A DNA stretch of 42,030 nucleotides, taken from Candidatus Anoxychlamydiales bacterium (GTDB taxonomy: Bacteria > Chlamydiota > Chlamydiia > Chlamydiales > SM23-39). The DNA is taken from assembly GCA_011064875.1 (NCBI GenBank), contig JAAKFV010000007.1, positions 1-42,030 of the forward strand, in the 5' to 3' direction. The stretch's first letter is position 1; each line of letters begins with the position of its first letter. Below the pieces are notes generated by a model. That model did no database searches. It was not told where the DNA came from and worked only from the letters and a program-made list of their open reading frames with translations. Positions 1,041-13,998 of the stretch are shown here, piece by piece. The translations under genes were made by a program, and so were the position numbers.

Positions 1041-2567
1041 TTATTTTAATAACCTTGTAACAAACTTAACAAAGGAAATTTTATCAGTACAACTTTTATT
1101 ACCAACAATTTGAACATTCAAAGCAGAAGCAATAGATCCCAAAAAAGCAGATAAAATGAGCGGATATTTTTTTGCCATACATAAAGATGCAATAGCTAAA
1201 AAACTATCTCCGGCTCCAACCCTATCTATTACATTTGTAACAAAAGCTGGAATGTTCTCTGTGATTCCATTAGTTGAAAAACAATAAATTCCTTTTACTC
1301 CACGAGTAACACAAATATTTGAGCAATTCATTTTATTCGCAATTTTTAAAGATATTTCGGATAAATTACTATGTCTATCATGAGCAGCTAAACGAATCTC
1401 TGGTTCATTTAAAGAAATAAAATCTGCTTTTTTGTAATGAGAGATAACATTGAACCCTCGATTACCACTATTAATTTGTGTATTAATGGCTAGATAAGAA
1501 TTGAGCTTAGAAATTGCATTGATGATTTTCTTATTTGTAAATCCATTACCAAAATCACACACTAAAATTAAATCAAAACAATTTCCTTTTGTTTGAAGGT
1601 AGCTTATAATTTGATTTGTTTCAAATTCGCCCAATAAGTTTTTATTGCTTGAATAAGTTTCAAATAGTTTATTTAGTGTCTTGCCATCCTTTAAAATATA
1701 CCTTTTTTTCAAAAGTGTAGAATGATTTTCATGAAAAACTGCTTGAAGATCAACTTTTTTATCTAATTTTTGTTTTATAAAGGTTTTATTTGGGCAATTT
1801 TTTCCTATGGAGGTTAGTAAAGTTACGTTATCACAAAATTCAGAAATATGATTGGCAATAATTAAAGATCCTCCAAGAAAATCTTCCTTTTCTTCATATG
1901 ATGCCACCAAATGTTGACCTTTTCCAGATTGTCCGAGTAGTTCAACGTATTGATATTCATCAATTATCGCATCACCTATAACTAAAACTTTTAACTTAGA
2001 CAAATCATTAATTTTTTGAATAATCTGATCAATTGAATATTTTTTATTAATTTTTTGGATGAATAATTTAATTTCATCTGAAATTGGTTCAACATATTTA
2101 TTAATCAAAGAAGATGAGCTAAAAACTATATCATCAGTGAAATAAATCTGCCCCCCATTTATTTTTACTTCTCTCTCTTCTTCTATAATTTTCCCTGTAA
2201 TATCATTTTTCGCATCCTCGTATTCTTTTCCTTTCACATAATAATCAGGCTTTATAGCTTTTATCGCATTCATTGCTTCTTTTGAAGTATTCATAACTAC
2301 ATAATCAACAGATGACAAAGCTGCTATCGATTCTAATCTTAATTTTTCATTAAAAGCAGGTCTTCCAGGTCCTTTATTCACAAATTTATCAGGTGTAACA
2401 CTTACAACTAGCTTATCTCCCTTTTTTTTAGCTTCCTTAAAATGTCTAATATGTCCTGGATGTAAAAGGTCAAAAACTCCGTGACATTGTACTATTTTTT
2501 CACCTTTCTTTTTATGAGATTGCAATATTTTTTCAATCTCTTCCAAACTTATTATTTTGTTATGCAT
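1041..2567 (-). CDS. Fused nucleotidyltransferase (N) and PfkB sugar kinase (C), HldE-like with reversed domain order
   Basis: 508 residues in two domains. Residues ~22-165 are a cytidylyltransferase-like nucleotidyltransferase with HGVFDLLHPGH (HPGH at 36-39). Residues ~190-508 are a PfkB/ribokinase-type kinase with the sugar-binding GG near 232-233 and the catalytic GAGD at 451-454. E. coli HldE has the same activities but in the opposite order (kinase first). The likely role is to phosphorylate a heptose 7-phosphate and activate it as an NDP-sugar in the cytoplasm. This fits the adjacent GmhA-like isomerase, whose stop overlaps this start by 8 bases, and the GT9 heptosyltransferase-like gene at 8246-9556. 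The exact sugar and nucleotide cannot be read from the sequence. Confidence 0.8.
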   Translation of the reverse strand: MHNKIISLEEIEKILQSHKKKGEKIVQCHGVFDLLHPGHIRHFKEAKKKGDKLVVSVTPDKFVNKGPGRPAFNEKLRLESIAALSSVDYVVMNTSKEAMNAIKAIKPDYYVKGKEYEDAKNDITGKIIEEEREVKINGGQIYFTDDIVFSSSSLINKYVEPISDEIKLFIQKINKKYSIDQIIQKINDLSKLKVLVIGDAIIDEYQYVELLGQSGKGQHLVASYEEKEDFLGGSLIIANHISEFCDNVTLLTSIGKNCPNKTFIKQKLDKKVDLQAVFHENHSTLLKKRYILKDGKTLNKLFETYSSNKNLLGEFETNQIISYLQTKGNCFDLILVCDFGNGFTNKKIINAISKLNSYLAINTQINSGNRGFNVISHYKKADFISLNEPEIRLAAHDRHSNLSEISLKIANKMNCSNICVTRGVKGIYCFSTNGITENIPAFVTNVIDRVGAGDSFLAIASLCMAKKYPLILSAFLGSIASALNVQIVGNKSCTDKISFVKFVTRLLK

Positions 2568-3159
2568 TTTTTATAGAAACCAAATCCGATTTTTTAATAT
2601 TTTGAATTTTCTCAAAAAGATCAATAACAGTATGAAGAAGAAACATATGCCCCATTTCTACTAAACCATAATCAATTCTACCAAGCCAAAAGTTTAACTC
2701 GCCGAGTTGTCTCAAAGGATTAACGGAATCAAATCCAGAAAGAGTTATTACTTTTGCTCCTTTTTCTTTTGCTATTTTACAAGCATTTATAATATTCAAA
2801 GAATTCCCAGAACTACTAACGGCAACTAAAAGATCTTGTCTTTTTAAATTAACCTTTAATGCTTCACTATAACATTTTTCATATCCAAAATCATTTGCTA
2901 AACACGTTAAAACATTTGTATCTACTAAAGTAGATGCTGGAATTTTTAGTGCTTTAACTAAATCATTACAAAAATGTGAAGCAATTCCTGCACTCCCACC
3001 ATTACCTATTATATAAGTTAAACCATCATTTTTTTTTGTTTGAAGCAAATATTTTTTAAACAAAGAAAAGCTCTGATCAATATCTATTAAATCTTTTTCA
3101 GTTGTACAAGTAATATCTAAGATAATATTTTTAAATTCTTCTAATCTTTTATAAATCAT
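2560..3159 (-). CDS. GmhA-like SIS-domain phosphosugar isomerase
   Basis: 199 residues, near the ~190 of GmhA (sedoheptulose-7-phosphate isomerase, first step to activated heptose). SIS-domain phosphate-binding segments are clear: GNGGSA at 52-57 and SSSGNS at 115-120. The C-terminal segment EMGHMFLLH supplies E168, H171 and H176, comparable to the Glu/His active-site region of GmhA. The start overlaps the preceding epimerase stop as ATGA, and its stop overlaps the kinase fusion by 8 bases, so translational coupling is likely. A related SIS isomerase for another phosphosugar is the alternative, but adjacency to an HldE-like enzyme favours heptose. Confidence 0.8.
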   Translation of the reverse strand: MIYKRLEEFKNIILDITCTTEKDLIDIDQSFSLFKKYLLQTKKNDGLTYIIGNGGSAGIASHFCNDLVKALKIPASTLVDTNVLTCLANDFGYEKCYSEALKVNLKRQDLLVAVSSSGNSLNIINACKIAKEKGAKVITLSGFDSVNPLRQLGELNFWLGRIDYGLVEMGHMFLLHTVIDLFEKIQNIKKSDLVSIKNA

Positions 3160-4160
3160 AATTTTTGTTTTTGGTTAGGTGTTAAATATTTAAACCAATT
3201 TTTAGTTGCTTTTTCAATGCTTTTTTCATCCCAAATAGGAGCGTCTTTAAAATCTTCAATATGTTCTAATAATTTTTTCACTCCATTTTCAAATGAAATT
3301 TTTGCCCTCCACCCTAAATTTTTATATATTTTGGAAACATCTGCAAAAGTTTTCTCAGGCTCTCCAGGTCTTTTAGGAACGTTAACAAACTCACCTTTTA
3401 ATAATCGAACCAATTTATTAACACTATAGTGGCCTGAGCTTCCAACATTAAATATTTCACCAGTTATATCAGAATCTGCAGCTTTGTAAATAGCTTCTAC
3501 AATATCTGAAACATAGGTAAAATCTCTTGTCTGAGTTCCATCACCAACAACAGTAAAAGGCTTGTTATTTAATTTTTGAGCTAAAAACACTCCAAAAACA
3601 GCTCCATATGTTCCCGTCGTTCTAGCTCTTGGACCATATACATTAAAAAATCTAAGAGAAATAGAAGGAATCTTATAGAGCTTTTCAAAGTGCATTACCA
3701 ATTCTTCTCCTAAATATTTTGTTAAAGCATATGGATACTGAGGAGAAATTGCAGAAGTTTCTGGTGTCGGACAAACCTTTGGTATTCCATAACAAGAAGA
3801 AGATGCAGCATAAATAAAACGTTTCACATTAGTTTTTTTTGAGGCTTCTAAAACATTAAAAGTTCCATCAACATTAGTTTCAAAATAATCTCTTGGTTTT
3901 TCTATTGAAGGAACAATATCAGCAAGTGCCGCTAAATGAAATACCCAATCTACATTTTCAAACAAGGGAATTAACTTGTCTTTATCTCTAATATCAACAT
4001 TATAAAATGAAAAGTTAGGAAATTTGTGAGCTTTTTCTAAATTTTTTAGCCAACCAGTAGATAAATTATCGATTACTATAACTTCATGATTTTTCTTTAA
4101 TAGAAAATCTACCAAATGACTTCCAATAAATCCTGCGCCACCAGTAACTACAATTCTCAT
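3156..4160 (-). CDS. NAD-dependent sugar epimerase/dehydratase (extended SDR, GalE-like)
   Basis: 334 residues, a full-length extended short-chain dehydrogenase. The NAD-binding Rossmann motif TGGAGFIGSH is at 6-15, the serine stretch YAASSSCYG at 117-125, and the catalytic Tyr-x3-Lys is YALTK at 144-148. FNVYGPRA downstream is usual for UDP-sugar 4-epimerases. It acts on an NDP-sugar in the cytoplasm; 4-epimerisation is likely but the substrate is unknown. It lies between a second SDR gene (8-base gap) and the GmhA-like gene (ATGA overlap). Given the heptose-type neighbours it could equally be an NDP-heptose epimerase. Confidence 0.8.
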   Translation of the reverse strand: MRIVVTGGAGFIGSHLVDFLLKKNHEVIVIDNLSTGWLKNLEKAHKFPNFSFYNVDIRDKDKLIPLFENVDWVFHLAALADIVPSIEKPRDYFETNVDGTFNVLEASKKTNVKRFIYAASSSCYGIPKVCPTPETSAISPQYPYALTKYLGEELVMHFEKLYKIPSISLRFFNVYGPRARTTGTYGAVFGVFLAQKLNNKPFTVVGDGTQTRDFTYVSDIVEAIYKAADSDITGEIFNVGSSGHYSVNKLVRLLKGEFVNVPKRPGEPEKTFADVSKIYKNLGWRAKISFENGVKKLLEHIEDFKDAPIWDEKSIEKATKNWFKYLTPNQKQKL

Positions 4161-4168
4161 AATCAGCT

Positions 4169-5161
4169 CTATTCTAAATTAATTTCTTTCATAGTTTCGA
4201 TATTGAAATATAATTTATTTCTTAAAGAATCCTTTAATTTTTTTTGCTCAAAAGCTGAAATTAAACTCTCAACAGCATCTTTTATAGTATAATTAGCCTT
4301 AAACCCTAATTTCTTTTCAATCTTCTCTGATGATATATGATATGATCTATTATCATTAGTAGGCACAACTTCCATGTCAACTTTTCTTTTTCTAGACACT
4401 CTATTTTTAACCATTTCACTTATCTCTAAAACACTATAATTTTGATATCCAGCATTAAAAATTTCGCCTTGCACTTTCTCTTTCGGAGCCTCTAAAATCG
4501 TAATATAGGCTCTAACCATATCATCGATATGTATGTTTGGTCGTAGCTGAGATCCTCCAACAACCTTTATTTTGCCATTATTGTAAGCATGGTTTGTTAA
4601 AATATTTACAATAACGTCTAAACGCTGCCTTGGAGCATATCCACAAACAGTAGCAGGTCTTATTACTGTTCCAATAAAATTATTATCAATATTACTTAAG
4701 AGTATTTTTTCACACAGAGCTTTGAATCTTGAATAGTCAGTTAAAGGCTCTAAGGACATGTCCTCAGTAACATTTTTTTCTTTTTTTATTCCATATACAG
4801 AAGACGACGAAGCATAGATAAATCTTTTAATTTTATGTTTTTTACAAATTTTAACAAAAGGCTCAAACGAGTCTAAATTTACAGATTTTCCAAGTTTTGG
4901 ATTTAACTCAAAGCTTGGATCATTAGAAATACAAGCTAGATGAATTACTGAGTCACAACCTTGAACAGCCTTTTCAATTTTATTAAAATCTCTTATATCA
5001 CCTTTTATTAAAGTAAGATTAGATTTGTTTTCTAATTCATCAAAAACATTCTCTCCATATAAAAAAAGATCATAAACAACTACTTTATAACCTTTTTTCA
5101 AAAGAGCAGGAATCAGCTTAGATCCAACGTATCCTGCTCCACCAGGAACAAAAATTTTCAT
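4169..5161 (-). CDS. Second NAD-dependent sugar epimerase/dehydratase (extended SDR)
   Basis: 330 residues from the ATG at 5161. An upstream in-frame ATG (5173) adds only MREH; the inner start is preferred because GAGAG sits about 5 bases before it and because MKIFVPGGAGYVGS places the NAD-binding motif right at the N-terminus. Further SDR signs are YASSSSVYG at 116-124 and catalytic YSRFK at 143-147. It is clearly divergent from the neighbouring SDR (3156-4160), so the two are not a recent duplication and probably do successive or alternative steps on an NDP-sugar. It is the first gene of the minus-strand glycan operon. The 132 bases up to the divergent ABC gene are AT-rich, with no promoter I trust. 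Confidence 0.78.
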   Translation of the reverse strand: MKIFVPGGAGYVGSKLIPALLKKGYKVVVYDLFLYGENVFDELENKSNLTLIKGDIRDFNKIEKAVQGCDSVIHLACISNDPSFELNPKLGKSVNLDSFEPFVKICKKHKIKRFIYASSSSVYGIKKEKNVTEDMSLEPLTDYSRFKALCEKILLSNIDNNFIGTVIRPATVCGYAPRQRLDVIVNILTNHAYNNGKIKVVGGSQLRPNIHIDDMVRAYITILEAPKEKVQGEIFNAGYQNYSVLEISEMVKNRVSRKRKVDMEVVPTNDNRSYHISSEKIEKKLGFKANYTIKDAVESLISAFEQKKLKDSLRNKLYFNIETMKEINLE

Positions 5162-5293
5162 ATGCTCTCTCATTTTTTACTTTTGATTATCAAAAAAATC
5201 ATGAACTTTTGTAAGTAATATATTTTTATACATTTTCTTTTTTTCTTCAATCCTTTATTATACGAATCTCTATCAATGGGATAATATTGCAAT

Positions 5294-7178: not shown

Positions 7179-8258
7179 TTAGATTTCAGAGAGTTTTGTT
7201 AAAAGCTTGAATATATAAGAAAGAGTCGCTTCATTTGTGAGGTTTTCATTAGCAAACTTATTTGCATTTTCTGAAATCTTTTTAGCTTTTTTATCGTTGT
7301 CTTTGAGCCAATGTATTTTAGATATTAAGTCTTTATCTGAATCGAATTCTAAATAGTGTTTATCGCTTTTAACACCTGAGTAATACCACTCTAAATAATC
7401 GGAGCTATTTTTTAAGACGACGGAATTTGAAAAAAGCTGCCAAAAAAACGAACCTGAAAAAGCATTGCCATCAACAGATAATAGATATTTATATTTGATT
7501 TGATCTATAGGAGATGCTTTTTCTTTTAGCTCAAAATTTTCAATTAAATATTTTTTGTTTCCTTCAGATAGCTGAGAAATATTGGAAAAAGAAGCATCTA
7601 TTAAGTGGGGATAATGCTGCGCTAGCTTTACGATTTTTAATCTTTCATTTTTTTCTAAATCTAAAAACCCTGTAGTTGTCCCCCTCCAAAAAGCTTGAGA
7701 TGCCTTTTGATCCCAATTTAAATGTACAGCGGCTTTACTCAAATTGTCTAATAAAAGATCATTTTTCTCCATCCATTCGATGTGAGGAAATAAAATAACT
7801 TTATTATTATTTTGTTTTTTTGAAATACAAAATATTGGAGATTCTAAACACTCTATTAGTTTTGGATTATCTAAGGAGTCTGAGATTGAGTATAAAAATT
7901 CTATATCTGGAAATTTAATAAACTTTTTTGATCTTTGCATAAAATTGTGAAATCTCACAAATCTAGGATGAAATTTTAGATTCAAGAAATTTTGGTACTT
8001 GATTCTATTATTTTTTATTTTTACTTTAATGAGCTCTGCTTCTTTTAAAAAATTTTGATCTTTTAGATTTTGAATTGTTTGATCGATTTCATTTTTTTTA
8101 TTTTGAAAATTTTTTAACTCACTATTTATCTGTCTTTCCATCCAGGGAGAGAAATTTTTAATTTTTTCATTTAAAATTTTTTTGGATATTTGAAAATTGA
8201 AATTATCCTTTTTTACAGCGAGATAAAAACCTTTTAAATTCTGTTTTAGCTTTTGCAT
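7179..8258 (-). CDS. Glycosyltransferase family 90 (CAP10-like)
   Basis: 359 residues with recognisable GT90/CAP10 features in the C-terminal half: FWRGTTTGF, YKYLLSVDGNAFSGSFFWQL, then SSDYLEWYYSGVK and a closing helix of the KAKKISENANKFANENLT kind. GT90 enzymes transfer xylose or other sugars from UDP-sugars to capsule, LPS or protein acceptors. The N-terminal ~110 residues are Lys/Asn-rich and helical with no motif I recognise. No signal peptide is visible, so a cytoplasmic or inner-membrane-face location is likely. Its start overlaps the GT9 gene by 13 bases, implying coupled translation and a shared role in building a surface glycan. Confidence 0.75.
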   Translation of the reverse strand: MQKLKQNLKGFYLAVKKDNFNFQISKKILNEKIKNFSPWMERQINSELKNFQNKKNEIDQTIQNLKDQNFLKEAELIKVKIKNNRIKYQNFLNLKFHPRFVRFHNFMQRSKKFIKFPDIEFLYSISDSLDNPKLIECLESPIFCISKKQNNNKVILFPHIEWMEKNDLLLDNLSKAAVHLNWDQKASQAFWRGTTTGFLDLEKNERLKIVKLAQHYPHLIDASFSNISQLSEGNKKYLIENFELKEKASPIDQIKYKYLLSVDGNAFSGSFFWQLFSNSVVLKNSSDYLEWYYSGVKSDKHYLEFDSDKDLISKIHWLKDNDKKAKKISENANKFANENLTNEATLSYIFKLLTKLSEI

Positions 8259-9556
8259 TCAAACCTCTTTATTTTAGCTAAAATATCATCAATTTTGATT
8301 GTATTTAAACAGTCCATAGATTTGCAACCATTTTTCATATGGCATGGATTGCATTCCATATTTTGTACAATAGGAATAACGTTTAGTTTTTTCTCTGTCC
8401 AGTGATTCACATTATTAATTCCTGAGTAAATAACTATTGTAGATTTATCTAAAGCTGTAGATAGATGCAATATAAATGAATCAACACAAACAACGAGCTT
8501 TGCATTTTTTACAATGTATGAGAGCTCAGAAAAATTAAGTTTATCTGAGAGATTAAATAGGCTTTTTTGATTTAAATTACATTCTAAATCTTGAGATTTT
8601 ATAATCTGTGAAATTAGAGATGTCTCATAAAATCCTTTTCCTGTAAAAACTATTTTCTTTCCTTTTTTAAGAAGTTCATTTGTTAATTTTTGCCATTTAT
8701 TTATATCCCACATTTTTTTTAAACTACCAGCACCAATATGAAAGATGATATAATCATTTGGCAAATTAAAATTTTCTAAACTTTTCTGATTTTGATCTTT
8801 ATATCTATTTACAAACTCTTTAGTAAAAATATCGTTAGATATTTTTACTAATTTTGGTTCGATATTAAAATCTTCATTATTTGAATCTACATTTAAAAAT
8901 TTTAATAAATCTAAATGATATGAAAAAACATGCTGATTCTTATTTTCCCAAATTAAAGAATGCGATAAAAAATTTTCAAAACCTGCACTTGAATAGCCTA
9001 TTCTTATTGGGACTTTAGCTTTATAAAAAAGATATATGGAATTTGGGAAATGATAATGCAAGTCTATAGCTACTTCAAAATTTTCTTTTTTGATATCATG
9101 AATCACTTTTTTTCTAGAGATATAATAATTTCTAATTTTTTTAAAATTAGAAATTTCTTCTCTATTTATCTTCCAATGATCTACAACAAAAATTTTATCT
9201 ATAAGAGAAAAATTCTCTATAATTTGTTTAGAGACACTTGAACAAACAAACCCTATTTTAGCATCTGGATATTTTTCTTTTAAAATTTTCGCTGCTTTTA
9301 AAGAGATCAAAACATCGCCTAGATGAGCGATATTAGATAGAAGAATTTTTTTAGGATTTTTTATAAAATTTTCTAATTTTATTTTTTCATTTTTTAGAGT
9401 TATTTTTGATTTGAAAAAATCAAATTTCAAAATTTTTATAATTTTGAAATAAACAAATGAAAAAAAATCTACACTTTTTAAAAAGGTATAAAGAAGAGGG
9501 TTTTTGACGAGGTATTTCCCTTTAAGGGGGGAGACTTTATTAATTTTCTTTTTCAT
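8246..9556 (-). CDS. Glycosyltransferase family 9 (heptosyltransferase-like)
   Basis: 436 residues. The GT9 fold is indicated by LLSNIAHLGDVLISLKAAK near 72-90 and by the C-terminal nucleotide-sugar site FHIGAGSLKKMW, then VCVDSFILHLSTALDK and VIYSGINN. A Cys cluster near the end (MECNPCHMKNGCKSMDC) is common in this family. GT9 enzymes move heptose from ADP-heptose to LPS core. The GmhA-like and HldE-like enzymes at 1041-3159 could supply its donor, although those genes are in a separate operon. The start overlaps the uvrB stop as ATGA. The first ~65 residues are an extra basic extension before the usual family start. Donor sugar is inferred, not seen. Confidence 0.8.
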   Translation of the reverse strand: MKKKINKVSPLKGKYLVKNPLLYTFLKSVDFFSFVYFKIIKILKFDFFKSKITLKNEKIKLENFIKNPKKILLSNIAHLGDVLISLKAAKILKEKYPDAKIGFVCSSVSKQIIENFSLIDKIFVVDHWKINREEISNFKKIRNYYISRKKVIHDIKKENFEVAIDLHYHFPNSIYLFYKAKVPIRIGYSSAGFENFLSHSLIWENKNQHVFSYHLDLLKFLNVDSNNEDFNIEPKLVKISNDIFTKEFVNRYKDQNQKSLENFNLPNDYIIFHIGAGSLKKMWDINKWQKLTNELLKKGKKIVFTGKGFYETSLISQIIKSQDLECNLNQKSLFNLSDKLNFSELSYIVKNAKLVVCVDSFILHLSTALDKSTIVIYSGINNVNHWTEKKLNVIPIVQNMECNPCHMKNGCKSMDCLNTIKIDDILAKIKRFECKS

Positions 9557-11541
9557 TTAACTATTTCTAAGTTTTGATAGTAGTGCATCAAATCTCTGAG
9601 TTTTGCTGCATCTTCAAATCTCATCTCTTTTGCAGCTTTTTTCATCTCTTTTTGAATTTCTTTTATCTTAGCTTCGAGATCTTTAGTTGTATGAGTTTTT
9701 TTAAGATCGATTTTTTTAACATCTGATTCAATATCTTCTTTTAATCCAAATGTTTCTTCTAAAGTTTCGATTTTAGCTTTTTTTACTGTTTGAGGAGTTA
9801 TGCCATGCTTTTTGTTAAACTCTTCTTGCACAATTCTTCTTTTTTGAGTTATTGCAAGAGTGTGTTTGATGGCTAGAGTCTCATTATCTGCATACATGAT
9901 AACTCTACCATTTACATTTCTAGAGGCTCTTCCGCAGGTTTGAATAAGAGATGTCTCTGATCTTAAAAATCCTTGCTTGTCAGCATCTAATATAGCAACG
10001 AGTGTTACTTCTGGAATATCTAATCCTTCTCTTAGAAGATTGATACCGACTAAAACGTCGAATTTCCCAAGTCTAAGATCTTTAATGATAGCAATACGCT
10101 CTAAAGTATCTATATCTGAATGTAAATATTTTGCTTTAACATCAATATCGTTTAAAAATTTAGAAAGATCTTCTGATAGTCTTTTGGTAAGAGTGGTAAC
10201 TAATATTTTTCCGCCTTTTTCTTTCTCTTTTCTAATCTCTTCTAAAACATCATCTACTTGGCCTTCAGCTTTTTTTACTTCAATTTTTGGATCTAAAAGA
10301 CCTGTTGGTCTTATAATTTGCTCAACGATTTCGCCTTTAGATTGAGCTACTTCAAAATCAGATGGTGTTGCTGATACATAAATTACTTGATTTATCTTTT
10401 CAAAGATCTCATCGAATTTAAGTGGTCTATTATCGTAAGCTGATGGAAGTCTAAACCCAAATTCAATTAAAGACTCTTTTCTCGATCTATCGCCATTGTA
10501 CATAGCTCTCATTTGAGGAATGCTTTGATGAGACTCATCTATAAACATCAAAAAATCTTTTGGAAAATAATCCATTAAGCAAGGCGATGGTTGACCTGGA
10601 AGCCTTTGAGAGAAATGCCGAGAGTAGTTCTCTACTCCCTTACAAAATCCCATCTCTTTCATCATCTCTAAATCGTAGATGGTTCTTTCTTTAATCCTTT
10701 GTTTTTCGATAAGTTTATTTTCTTTTTCGAAAAAATTAATTCTATCTTCTAGCTCTTTTTTGATGCTATTTATTGCTAAAAATCTTACATCTTCAGGAGT
10801 TACAAAGTGAGATCCTGGAAAAATTTCAATTTTTTCTACTCTTTGAAATATTTGAGCGGTTAAAGGATCAATAATTGAAATTCTCTCTATCTCATCTCCA
10901 AAAAATTCTATTCTATAAGCTATATCGTCTTCGTAAGCTGGAACTATCTCTAATACATCGCCTCTTACTCTGAAATTTGCGCGAGATAGATCATAATCAT
11001 TTCTTTTATAGTGCAATTCAACTAAGTGAAGTAAAACATCATCTCGTCTAATCTCTTGGCCTACCTTTAAAGATAGAACCATTTGAGAGTAATACTCAGG
11101 AATACCAAGTCCATATATACAAGAGATTGAAGAGACTATTATTACATCATCTCTTTCAATTAAAGAACGAGTCGCACTAAGTCTCATCTTATCGATTGTA
11201 TCATTGATAGCTAGATCCTTTTCTATATAAGTGTCTGTTCTAGCTATATAGGCCTCTGGCTGATAGTAATCATAGTATGAGACGAAATATTCAACAGCAT
11301 TTTCTGGAAAAAATGTTTTAAACTCTTGATAAAGCTGGGCTGCTAGAGTTTTATTATGAGCTAAAATAAGTGTTGGCTTTTGCGTTTTTTGAATAATTTG
11401 AGCCATAGTAAAAGTTTTACCAGAACCTGTGATACCCAAAAGAACTTGGTTCTCTTTTTTTTCTTTTATGCCACGGGTGAGCTTTTCAATAGCCTGAGGC
11501 TGATCTCCTTTTGGCTCAAAATCGGTAGTTAACTTAAACAT
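9553..11541 (-). CDS. uvrB: UvrB, nucleotide excision repair helicase subunit
   Basis: 662 residues, the normal UvrB length. UvrB is the damage-verifying subunit that receives DNA from UvrA and recruits UvrC. Walker A GITGSGKT is at 36-43, the DNA-gripping beta-hairpin region YFVSYYDYYQPEAY at 85-98, and the DESH helicase motif at 335-338. The C-terminal UVR motif for UvrC contact is visible in the last ~40 residues (KEMRFEDAAKLRD). All key motifs are intact. It starts inside the end of the upstream tyrP (8-base overlap) and ends in an ATGA overlap with the GT9 gene, so it is the fourth gene of a compact six-gene transcript. Identification is secure. Confidence 0.97.
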   Translation of the reverse strand: MFKLTTDFEPKGDQPQAIEKLTRGIKEKKENQVLLGITGSGKTFTMAQIIQKTQKPTLILAHNKTLAAQLYQEFKTFFPENAVEYFVSYYDYYQPEAYIARTDTYIEKDLAINDTIDKMRLSATRSLIERDDVIIVSSISCIYGLGIPEYYSQMVLSLKVGQEIRRDDVLLHLVELHYKRNDYDLSRANFRVRGDVLEIVPAYEDDIAYRIEFFGDEIERISIIDPLTAQIFQRVEKIEIFPGSHFVTPEDVRFLAINSIKKELEDRINFFEKENKLIEKQRIKERTIYDLEMMKEMGFCKGVENYSRHFSQRLPGQPSPCLMDYFPKDFLMFIDESHQSIPQMRAMYNGDRSRKESLIEFGFRLPSAYDNRPLKFDEIFEKINQVIYVSATPSDFEVAQSKGEIVEQIIRPTGLLDPKIEVKKAEGQVDDVLEEIRKEKEKGGKILVTTLTKRLSEDLSKFLNDIDVKAKYLHSDIDTLERIAIIKDLRLGKFDVLVGINLLREGLDIPEVTLVAILDADKQGFLRSETSLIQTCGRASRNVNGRVIMYADNETLAIKHTLAITQKRRIVQEEFNKKHGITPQTVKKAKIETLEETFGLKEDIESDVKKIDLKKTHTTKDLEAKIKEIQKEMKKAAKEMRFEDAAKLRDLMHYYQNLEIVK

Positions 11542-12772
11542 TTTTATTCAAATAACCGCTGATAAGATTTTTCAAAAAACCCATCTCTTCTAAAATATCT
11601 AATCCAATTATCGCAAGCGCAATTAAAATCACTACGACAAGCAAAATCCGCCCTTTGAAAGATTGATAAAATTTCGCTTCTTTTACTTGCCATGTCATTA
11701 AAGCAGGTAAAATACATAAAAGTACTGCAACAAAAACTCCAGCGAATTGAAGAGCTGTTAAAAAAACCCTTTGATAACCATATAAGAAGATTAGAGGTGG
11801 CAAAAAAGTTAAGATACACGCTAAAAACCTACCTTTTTTATTTCTTTTGATTTTAAAGCCGTCTGATAAAAAGTCTGTCAAACTAAGTGTCACTCCAATA
11901 AAAGATGTGATGATTGCGCAAAAAGAGAAAATATTTGCTATTTTAGCAACCCAAGGAAGTTTTAATACGTTAATCAAATTATTAATTAAAGGTGCTGTTG
12001 ATCCTTGCCCTTCTATATACATTTGAGCAAGAGAGTTATCACCTGTTACCTTTACTGTTCCTAATACTAAAAATTCCCATACTACATAGATTATAAAAGG
12101 AATTAAACTACCTATTACCAAAGCTAATTTCATTTTTTTTACATCATGACGCATATAATTCGTAAGTGTTGGAATAATTATATGGAACCCATAAGAGGTT
12201 AATAAAATAGGAAAGCTAAATACGAGAGCTTTTTTATCAACATGCTTTATCAAATCAAAGTCTGTATGAGATGGAAGTAATATCGCTAAGACTAAATAAG
12301 CAGCAATAAGTCCGAACATCAATATTCTATTTATATAATCAGAGCTAGCAGAACCTAAATAAACGAAAATTCCAAAAATAACAACTAAAGGAAGCGGACC
12401 AGCCCAAACAGGGAGAGTATATCCTGTAAAATATTTTATAGCTTCTGTAAATAAAGGGGCAGATCCTGCCATGTAAGCTGCTGTTAGAGAATATAAAAGT
12501 AGGAGATAAAATACCCAAGCTACAGCCTTTCCCCAAAAGCCTAGGGTATGCTCAGCCATGGTAACTAAATTCACATTTCCTTTAACAGAAAGATTCGCCT
12601 CTAAATATAAAAAAGCAGTAATTAGCATGTATCCCCAAAAAAAGAGCAAAACAAAAAGGGTTGGGAAAAAGCCAGCAAAACCAGTCGTTACTGGAAGACC
12701 TAGCATTCCAGCTCCAATAGTCGTTCCAGAAATCAATAAAATGGATCCCAAAAATTTATTTGTCTTTATCAT
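11534..12772 (-). CDS. tyrP: Aromatic amino acid permease (TyrP/HAAAP family), downstream copy
   Basis: 412 residues, about 11 hydrophobic segments. The N-terminus GSILLISGTTIGAGMLGLPV is the family signature of the hydroxy/aromatic amino acid permeases (TyrP, Mtr), inner-membrane symporters for tyrosine or tryptophan. The Shine-Dalgarno AGGTG lies 7 bases before the ATG. It follows the other tyrP by 26 bases and overlaps uvrB by 8. Tandem tyrP copies are known in Chlamydia (tyrP_1/tyrP_2), where aromatic amino acids come from the host. The copies differ enough in sequence to be an old duplication, so they may differ in substrate (Tyr versus Trp), which cannot be told here. Confidence 0.9.
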   Translation of the reverse strand: MIKTNKFLGSILLISGTTIGAGMLGLPVTTGFAGFFPTLFVLLFFWGYMLITAFLYLEANLSVKGNVNLVTMAEHTLGFWGKAVAWVFYLLLLYSLTAAYMAGSAPLFTEAIKYFTGYTLPVWAGPLPLVVIFGIFVYLGSASSDYINRILMFGLIAAYLVLAILLPSHTDFDLIKHVDKKALVFSFPILLTSYGFHIIIPTLTNYMRHDVKKMKLALVIGSLIPFIIYVVWEFLVLGTVKVTGDNSLAQMYIEGQGSTAPLINNLINVLKLPWVAKIANIFSFCAIITSFIGVTLSLTDFLSDGFKIKRNKKGRFLACILTFLPPLIFLYGYQRVFLTALQFAGVFVAVLLCILPALMTWQVKEAKFYQSFKGRILLVVVILIALAIIGLDILEEMGFLKNLISGYLNKNV

Positions 12773-12798
12773 GACAATTCACCTTTTTTGTTTAATAT

Positions 12799-13998
12799 CT
12801 ATCTAAAAGTAGAAATGAGCTGGTTAAATATTATAACAAAAGAAAATAGTAAAACCAGTATTAAAGAAATTTTTCCACCTTTTGCATGATATGAGCTTGT
12901 CTCTTTATTTATGTATCTACCTATCCATGCCATTAAAGCGGGAAATATACAAAATATTATAACAGCGCAATATGCTCCTGCAAACCCAAGTGCTTTAAAA
13001 AAAATATCTGGATAGCTAAGTGCAAAAATAGTTGGTGGTAAAATTGCTAAAATTGCAAGCCACCAGTTATTTCTATGATCAGGTTTTACTTTTAGACCAT
13101 CAGCTATAAAATGCATGAGGCCTAAAGACTGAGCTAAAAAAGAGGTTACTATTGCAAAAAATGAAAACCATGCAGCAAATGTTACAACTAGTTTAGATTG
13201 CAAAACATTTCTAAGTGAAATCGTCGCTTCATTACCTTCAATAAACGCTTCATATAGCCCGAACTTTCCGCCTACAGGAACAATACCTAAAATTAAAACG
13301 ATCCAAAATAGATAAATTAAAAGAGCAAAAAAACTTCCACCAAGTATTGCTTTTTTTGTTTTTTGTAAATCTCCTTTCATATAAGCAGTTACAGTTGGAA
13401 TCATATTATGAAAACCAAAAGATGTAACTAAAACAGCTAGAGGTAATAAGAAATATTTCATATTAACGTGTGCGAAAAAAGAAAACTGAACTTTTGAAAC
13501 CCCTAAAAATATCATAAATAGATAGGTAACAATTAAGCCGATCATTAAAAGACGATTTGAAAAATCAACAACTTTTGTTCCAAAATAGACTATAACACCA
13601 AAGAAAATAACAAAAAAAATGCTTGTTAAATTTTGAGATATTGCAAACGGCAAAAATGATGAAAATAGTTTTCCACTACCCGCAATATAGGCAACTAAAA
13701 GCGAATAAAATAAAAATAGATATAAAACCCAGCTAATTATTTTACCAGCTTTCCCAAAAGCTTTTTCAGACATAGATATAATATTTACTCTTTCATAAAA
13801 CCAACCATTAACTTCAATTAGTAAAAGACCTGTAAAGGTCATAAAAACCCAAGATACTAAAAGAAGTATTATTGAAGGAAAAAAACCTGTAAGTCCCAAT
13901 AATACAGGAAGGCCTAACATTCCAGCTCCAATGCAACTACCAGCAATAAGTAACATTCCCCCTAAAACACTTCCAGGCTGAAGTTTTAATTTTTTCAT
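12799..13998 (-). CDS. tyrP: Aromatic amino acid permease (TyrP/HAAAP family), upstream copy
   Basis: 399 residues, about 11 hydrophobic segments. GGMLLIAGSCIGAGMLGLPV near residues 13-32 matches the family signature and aligns with the start of the neighbouring copy. Further shared stretches are ASFGFHNMIPTVTAYM-like (here VTSFGFHNMIPTVTAYMKGD) and the closing FPALMAW segment. Inner-membrane uptake of tyrosine, tryptophan or phenylalanine is the expected role. Its ATG overlaps the thyX-like stop as ATGA, and the second permease follows after 26 bases. Tandem retention suggests that two transporters with different properties are needed. Confidence 0.9.
   Translation of the reverse strand: MKKLKLQPGSVLGGMLLIAGSCIGAGMLGLPVLLGLTGFFPSIILLLVSWVFMTFTGLLLIEVNGWFYERVNIISMSEKAFGKAGKIISWVLYLFLFYSLLVAYIAGSGKLFSSFLPFAISQNLTSIFFVIFFGVIVYFGTKVVDFSNRLLMIGLIVTYLFMIFLGVSKVQFSFFAHVNMKYFLLPLAVLVTSFGFHNMIPTVTAYMKGDLQKTKKAILGGSFFALLIYLFWIVLILGIVPVGGKFGLYEAFIEGNEATISLRNVLQSKLVVTFAAWFSFFAIVTSFLAQSLGLMHFIADGLKVKPDHRNNWWLAILAILPPTIFALSYPDIFFKALGFAGAYCAVIIFCIFPALMAWIGRYINKETSSYHAKGGKISLILVLLFSFVIIFNQLISTFR

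Follow-up and report, generated by a model that had tools for sequence, protein, structure and literature searches.

Does an HldE-like enzyme with its two domains in reversed order, encoded beside a GmhA-like isomerase in an anaerobic chlamydial lineage, supply ordinary heptose, or is a different sugar made? The question is raised by a 42,030-nucleotide stretch of a Candidatus Anoxychlamydiales bacterium (GenBank assembly GCA_011064875.1, contig JAAKFV010000007.1, positions 1 to 42,030), here termed the window, which forms contig C75 in a draft genome of 1.58 Mb and whose fusion protein has its closest named relatives, at 70–71% identity, in Candidatus Anoxychlamydiales drafts. A heptose-type pathway had been proposed in the original prediction, accounting for heptose in an otherwise heptose-free lineage; the first part stands as the best reading and the second does not. 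The best explanation of the locus, with a probability of roughly 0.58, is an accessory cassette, shared horizontally, that makes a higher sugar in nucleotide-activated form; most likely this is a heptose derivative destined for a surface glycan.

Gene organisation

Six genes follow one another on the minus strand: SDR1 (4169–5173); SDR2 (3156–4160), NAD-dependent nucleotide-sugar epimerase/dehydrogenase-like; a GmhA-like SIS isomerase (2560–3159; 199 aa); the fusion (1041–2567; 508 aa), with an N-terminal HldC-like nucleotidyltransferase and a C-terminal PfkB kinase; an E1-alpha-like thiamine-diphosphate enzyme subunit (34–1014; 326 aa); and an E1-beta-like gene, cut off by the contig end after 47 bases (1–47), whose first residues resemble the E1-beta of locus L045. 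Overlaps of 4 bases between SDR2 and SIS, 8 bases between SIS and fusion and 14 bases between E1-alpha and E1-beta indicate tight coupling of these genes. The predicted position of the fusion beside a SIS_2/GmhA-like gene was borne out by these overlapping frames; the SDR genes (3156–5173) and the E1-like genes, absent from that prediction, belong to the same conserved unit.

Distribution and variants of the cassette

The fusion is not a chance product, since it is conserved across relatives with the same gene neighbours, at 53–71% identity in related Chlamydiota and 32–38% in other phyla. Searches with alignment A1 recovered it in 33 of 190 Chlamydiota genomes and in 50 of 398 genomes of a second phylum, that of a Pelagibacteraceae locus, and full-length fusions occur on two plasmids at 36–38% identity. 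On an Azospirillum oryzae plasmid, SDR2 (62%), fusion (36%), SIS, SDR1 (56%), E1-alpha (47%) and E1-beta form one run. A relative was also detected on 25 viral contigs; among the 19 examined, near-duplicates included, 13 encode the fusion in a single frame, an isomerase was matched on 13 and either E1 or transketolase on 12, and separate transferase and kinase matches are present in four (L211, L213, L214, L216). In the cyanophage S-SSM7, two neighbouring genes encode transferase and kinase, again with the transferase first, and one annotated as phosphoheptose isomerase lies about 0.8 kb further on. The reversed domain order is therefore common, being found in two phyla, on plasmids and on viral contigs, and is not specific to this lineage. 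That viral contigs (L199–L217) carry the fusion together with genes for an isomerase, for E1 or transketolase and for SDRs suggests phage carriage of the sugar cassette. Two fusion cassettes apiece are present in genomes G004 and G023 (L044, L045; L038, L039).

Neighbouring genes were surveyed at 20 of the 24 further Chlamydiota matches and at 40 of the 50 second-phylum matches. Within 9 kb of the Chlamydiota fusions (n = 20), SIS or SIS2 and SDR1 are present at every locus, SDR2 and a third SDR at 19, E1-alpha at 18, a methyltransferase at 16 and E1-beta at 15. At the second-phylum loci (n = 40), SDR2 was found at 18, isomerase-type genes at 11 and SDR1 at six; split transketolase halves alone occupy 15, E1 genes alone six, both none, and the remaining 19 gave no match to any of the thiamine-dependent genes in the panel. 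A strict exclusion between E1 and transketolase was considered, and no such rule is claimed because locus L037 has both. The wider fusion family may serve several sugars, since the second-phylum loci are often without thiamine-dependent, isomerase or SDR1 genes.

A second fusion class, FUS2, was identified in four genomes (G006, G066, G105, G195), with SDR1 and SDR2 kept at 50–61%; these cassettes add an isomerase, a transaldolase (329.7 against a cut-off of 281.95 in G006) and a GmhB/histidinol-phosphatase-type HAD (91.5 against a domain cut-off of 84.15 in the same genome). As a control, 16 canonical or E. coli loci spanning 152 kb gave zero fusion, cassette SIS, SDR1, E1 or transketolase matches, one SDR2 match at 32%, and one HAD match, which lies in the gmhB-holding E. 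coli stretch. The cassette is conserved as a unit.

Divergence from canonical heptose enzymes

Like HldE (RfaE) of E. coli, or the split pair HldA/HldC taken together, the fusion joins a PfkB kinase and an HxGH nucleotidyltransferase in one protein. As predicted, the order is opposite to that of E. coli HldE, in which the kinase comes first and the transferase second: Pfam places CTP_transf_like at residues 29–139 and PfkB at residues 193–495. The transferase domain (2079–2492, minus strand; residues about 26–163) retains the HxGH motif, and the kinase domain (1083–1991, minus strand) retains GAGD. Among NCBIfam models the nearest are HldE and its two domains, all matched under their cut-offs: 164.6 bits for PRK11316 (cut-off 521), 112.5 bits for rfaE_dom_I (cut-off 345) and 103.1 bits for rfaE_dom_II (cut-off 181.5). 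Foldseek searches with the predicted kinase fold returned HldA for all of the top seven matches (best E 2.6e-22; first non-HldA match E 9.4e-17), and the nearest solved fold is that of Burkholderia cenocepacia HldA, the model being of moderate quality (pLDDT 73.8, built from 5 sequences).

Substrate-site residues, named in the original prediction as a feature that could point to a non-heptose sugar, are partly kept and partly replaced. In a comparison of 70 fusions, the four FUS2 rows excluded, with 18 canonical kinases and 10 canonical transferases, the catalytic D264 of GAGD and the H353 and H356 of HxGH (E. coli HldE numbering) are retained in all 70, the window fusion included. The RISPE and DPK motifs, invariant in all 18 canonical kinase rows, are replaced in the fusions, with loss of R31, I32, P34, E35, D177, P178 and K179. 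In the transferase, Lys384 is kept, Asn346 becomes His in 69 of 70 and Asn375 becomes Thr in 70 of 70; these two positions would align with Asn30 and Asn59 of BpHldC under a presumed numbering offset of 12, which fits the types of all five listed residues. Both BpHldC residues are among those named from docking as functionally important (PMC7993394).

A phylogeny of each domain, which had been put forward as a check, sets the fusions apart from the canonical enzymes. In the kinase tree, canonical HldA (18 rows, support 97) is separate and the 19 Chlamydiota fusion kinases form one clade (support 100); in the transferase tree, canonical HldC (10 rows, support 99) is likewise separate, and the Chlamydiota fusions do not form a single clade in this short domain. 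Both trees were quick reconstructions in which the larger sets were represented by every second row, with long branches flagged in each.

The cassette isomerase shares with GmhA a SIS_2 domain (PF13580; 52 bits, cut-off 27), a serine-rich loop, the first zinc-site His and, in 41 of 46 rows, the last His. Its match to TIGR00441 (83.1 bits) is under the cut-off of 209.45, as is that of the canonical GmhA of the same genome (182.4 bits). At the positions matching E. coli GmhA 61, 65, 172 and 180, all seven canonical rows read His-Glu-Gln-His, whereas the cassette-type rows, which include one from a locus without a fusion (G019), read His-Asp-Glu-His in 41 of 46, as in the window, and His-Asp-Glu-Met in the other five. 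The Glu and Gln ligands are thus replaced by Asp and Glu in 46 of 46, and the loop after the first zinc site is shorter in the alignment. In GmhA orthologues, all four zinc ligands are reported to be completely conserved and their mutation to lower activity (PMC5705639), and E65 and H180 of E. coli GmhA have been proposed as base and acid (PMC5387315). Being without two of these ligands, the cassette SIS enzyme may act on a sugar other than the GmhA substrate. Together, the comparisons place the fusion and the cassette isomerase in subfamilies distinct by sequence from the canonical heptose enzymes.

The probable sugar product of the cassette

Evidence for a heptose-type product comes from HldE being the nearest family model, from the HldA-like fold predicted for the kinase, from the SDR1 match described below and from variant cassettes with a transaldolase, a GmhB-like phosphatase or a split transketolase; these last three partners also speak for a C7 ketose phosphate as starting material. 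In the proposed pathway, the SIS enzyme would isomerise a phosphorylated ketose, with sedoheptulose 7-phosphate the probable one; C1 would then be phosphorylated by the PfkB half of the fusion; a phosphatase would remove the distal phosphate, none having been found near the window copy and a GmhB-like HAD being present in sister cassettes; the nucleotidyltransferase half would make the NDP-sugar; SDR1 and SDR2 would oxidise and epimerise it; and the E1-alpha/beta pair, elsewhere a split transketolase, would carry out a thiamine-dependent two-carbon step. Gene content, domain order, conservation as a unit, separation from the canonical heptose set and the altered active-site residues are direct observations; that the substrate has seven carbons, which nucleotide is attached, how the steps are ordered and that a glycan is the destination are inferred. 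Counting against the heptose reading are scores far under the cut-off for every heptose-named model, the two replaced zinc ligands of the isomerase, the failure to find a GmhB-type phosphatase in the source genome and the sparser gene content of the second-phylum loci.

The best solved match of SDR1, which has the SDR-site YxxxK motif as YSRFK, is 6vo6/6vo8 (145 bits; next 89), taken here to be Cj1427, the heptose C4-dehydrogenase of Campylobacter jejuni. The step logic of the cassette resembles that of the capsule pathway in which this enzyme acts (GmhA, HddA, GmhB, HddC, Cj1427); it differs in that the cassette kinase and transferase are of HldE type, HddA being a GHMP kinase and HddC having a different transferase fold, and in the addition of SDR2 and E1-alpha/beta. 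In C. jejuni, GDP-heptose is formed by isomerase, C1 kinase, phosphatase and transferase and then oxidised by a C4-dehydrogenase, assigned as Cj1427 in a description that cites its structure paper (PMC10680097).

Production of a non-heptose NDP-sugar (a pentose, hexose or octose derivative) by the same architecture, the SIS, kinase and transferase having drifted to a new substrate, is a possible though not a probable alternative. The changed zinc ligands, the loss of seven kinase residues otherwise invariant and the two replaced transferase Asn all speak for such drift; the nearest models and folds, however, are those of heptose enzymes, and the FUS2 transaldolase and GmhB-like HAD and the split transketolase of other loci point to C7 supply.

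Within the preferred reading of a heptose derivative, a more specific and doubtful proposal is a two-carbon-branched sugar, in which SDR1 would oxidise C4 of the NDP-heptose, E1-alpha/beta would add a pyruvate-derived acetyl group, and a further SDR and a methyltransferase would complete a branched nine-carbon sugar. The proposal follows from the E1-like pairs AviB1/AviB2 and Pau11/Pau12, which have been proposed to install a two-carbon branch on a 4-ketosugar (PMC4753412, PMC4425429). Like these, the cassette pair appears to be free-standing, is placed among sugar genes next to an SDR that may oxidise C4, and is of similar size (325 and 345 aa for Pau11/Pau12; 326 aa for the window E1-alpha, 356 aa for the L045 E1-beta); the comparison covers gene setting and size, and the known pairs belong to actinobacterial antibiotic pathways. 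If correct, it would imply a nine-carbon product for surface glycans, with the same chemistry on viral contigs. Literature searches for the cassette, and for split transketolases with branched sugars, gave nothing relevant among the matches listed.

A role for the cassette E1 pair as the pyruvate dehydrogenase of the cell is not favoured, since the source genome encodes a further E1 on C11, as a frame of 670 residues, and an E2 on C25, and a long-frame E1 of this kind is also present in G002 and G003, which are without the cassette. In the source genome (G000), G001, G004, G005 and G018, the E2 genes lie on contigs other than that of the cassette.

A separate canonical heptose set

The premise that heptose is special to the fusion locus fails, as other contigs of this genome encode a canonical GmhA/HldA/HldC/HldD set. 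The canonical GmhA (C25) is 49% identical to that of E. coli, has the zinc residues His-Glu-Gln-His, adjoins LpxK and lies close to a presumably KdsD-like gene that combines SIS and CBS domains; on C65 an HldA-like kinase adjoins HldD, the latter scoring 351.7 bits (cut-off 274.6), and an HldC-like gene lies on C21. Synthesis of heptose solely through the cassette is ruled out by this set, which is found in nearly all relatives examined, including the fusion-less G002 and G003; of the 30 genomes searched, the gmhA model matched in 27 and HldD exceeded its cut-off in 25. The GmhB model TIGR00213 matched in only two of the 30, and profile searches of the source genome with TIGR00213 and TIGR01656 detected no GmhB-type phosphatase. 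At L078 (1644–6745), canonical GmhA, LpxK, the SIS and CBS gene, a dicarboxylate symporter and a 2-oxoacid dehydrogenase E2 form one run, and the canonical HldA-like protein at L048 (4537–5859) has about 120 extra C-terminal residues. Literature searches returned no paper on heptose or ADP-heptose in chlamydiae or on heptose in Protochlamydia lipopolysaccharide, and the word heptose is absent from the main text of the term-searched Chlamydiae papers naming Anoxychlamydiales.

A GT9 gene was predicted about 5 kb away and is indeed located at 8246–9556 (minus strand), about 5.1 kb from position 3159; its supposed link to the heptose-type locus found no support. GT9 matches (E ≤ 1e-40) were obtained in 5 of 14 genomes, namely four of the 10 with the cassette (the source genome G000, G001, G006 and G015) and one of the four without (G002; none in G003, G020 or G021), and a role as the cassette transferase is not supported, as presence does not track the cassette. 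With a GT90 gene (7179–8258, minus strand), the GT9 gene lies between the cassette and uvrB, a pair found beside the cassette also in G001 and G015.

These findings bear on whether the fusion is simply the HldE of the lineage, its halves exchanged, and provides ADP-heptose to the LPS core. The nearest family is HldE and a GT9 gene is close by, but this is unlikely given the independence of GT9 from the cassette, the divergent active sites of isomerase and fusion, the separate clades and the canonical set, because of which the fusion is not the source of ordinary heptose. Release of an activated heptose as a host-cell signal, ADP-heptose being an ALPK1 ligand in animals, is highly improbable, as ADP-heptose would already come from the canonical set, the added SDR and thiamine-dependent enzymes are typical of glycan precursors, and the cassette is found on plasmids and viral contigs as well as in many unrelated bacteria.

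Two heptose-type systems can be told apart in this anaerobic chlamydial lineage: one is canonical and conserved, with GmhA beside lpxK, and the other is a shared cassette of patchy occurrence whose active sites are altered. Members of the large fusion family are mostly annotated as PfkB kinase or HldE, and HldE-like matches should not be read as capacity for ADP-heptose, and hence for an ALPK1 ligand; once its conserved partners are named, namely the isomerase, the two SDRs, the thiamine-dependent enzyme and in some cases a transaldolase and a phosphatase, the product becomes a testable problem. Elsewhere in the window, inspection by eye identified a pair of related, neighbouring genes that resemble transporters of the aromatic amino acid permease type (11534–13998, minus strand) and a frame of at least 2444 residues that runs off the contig (34699–42030, plus strand), with Gly/Ser/Thr-rich repeats and an autotransporter-like appearance.
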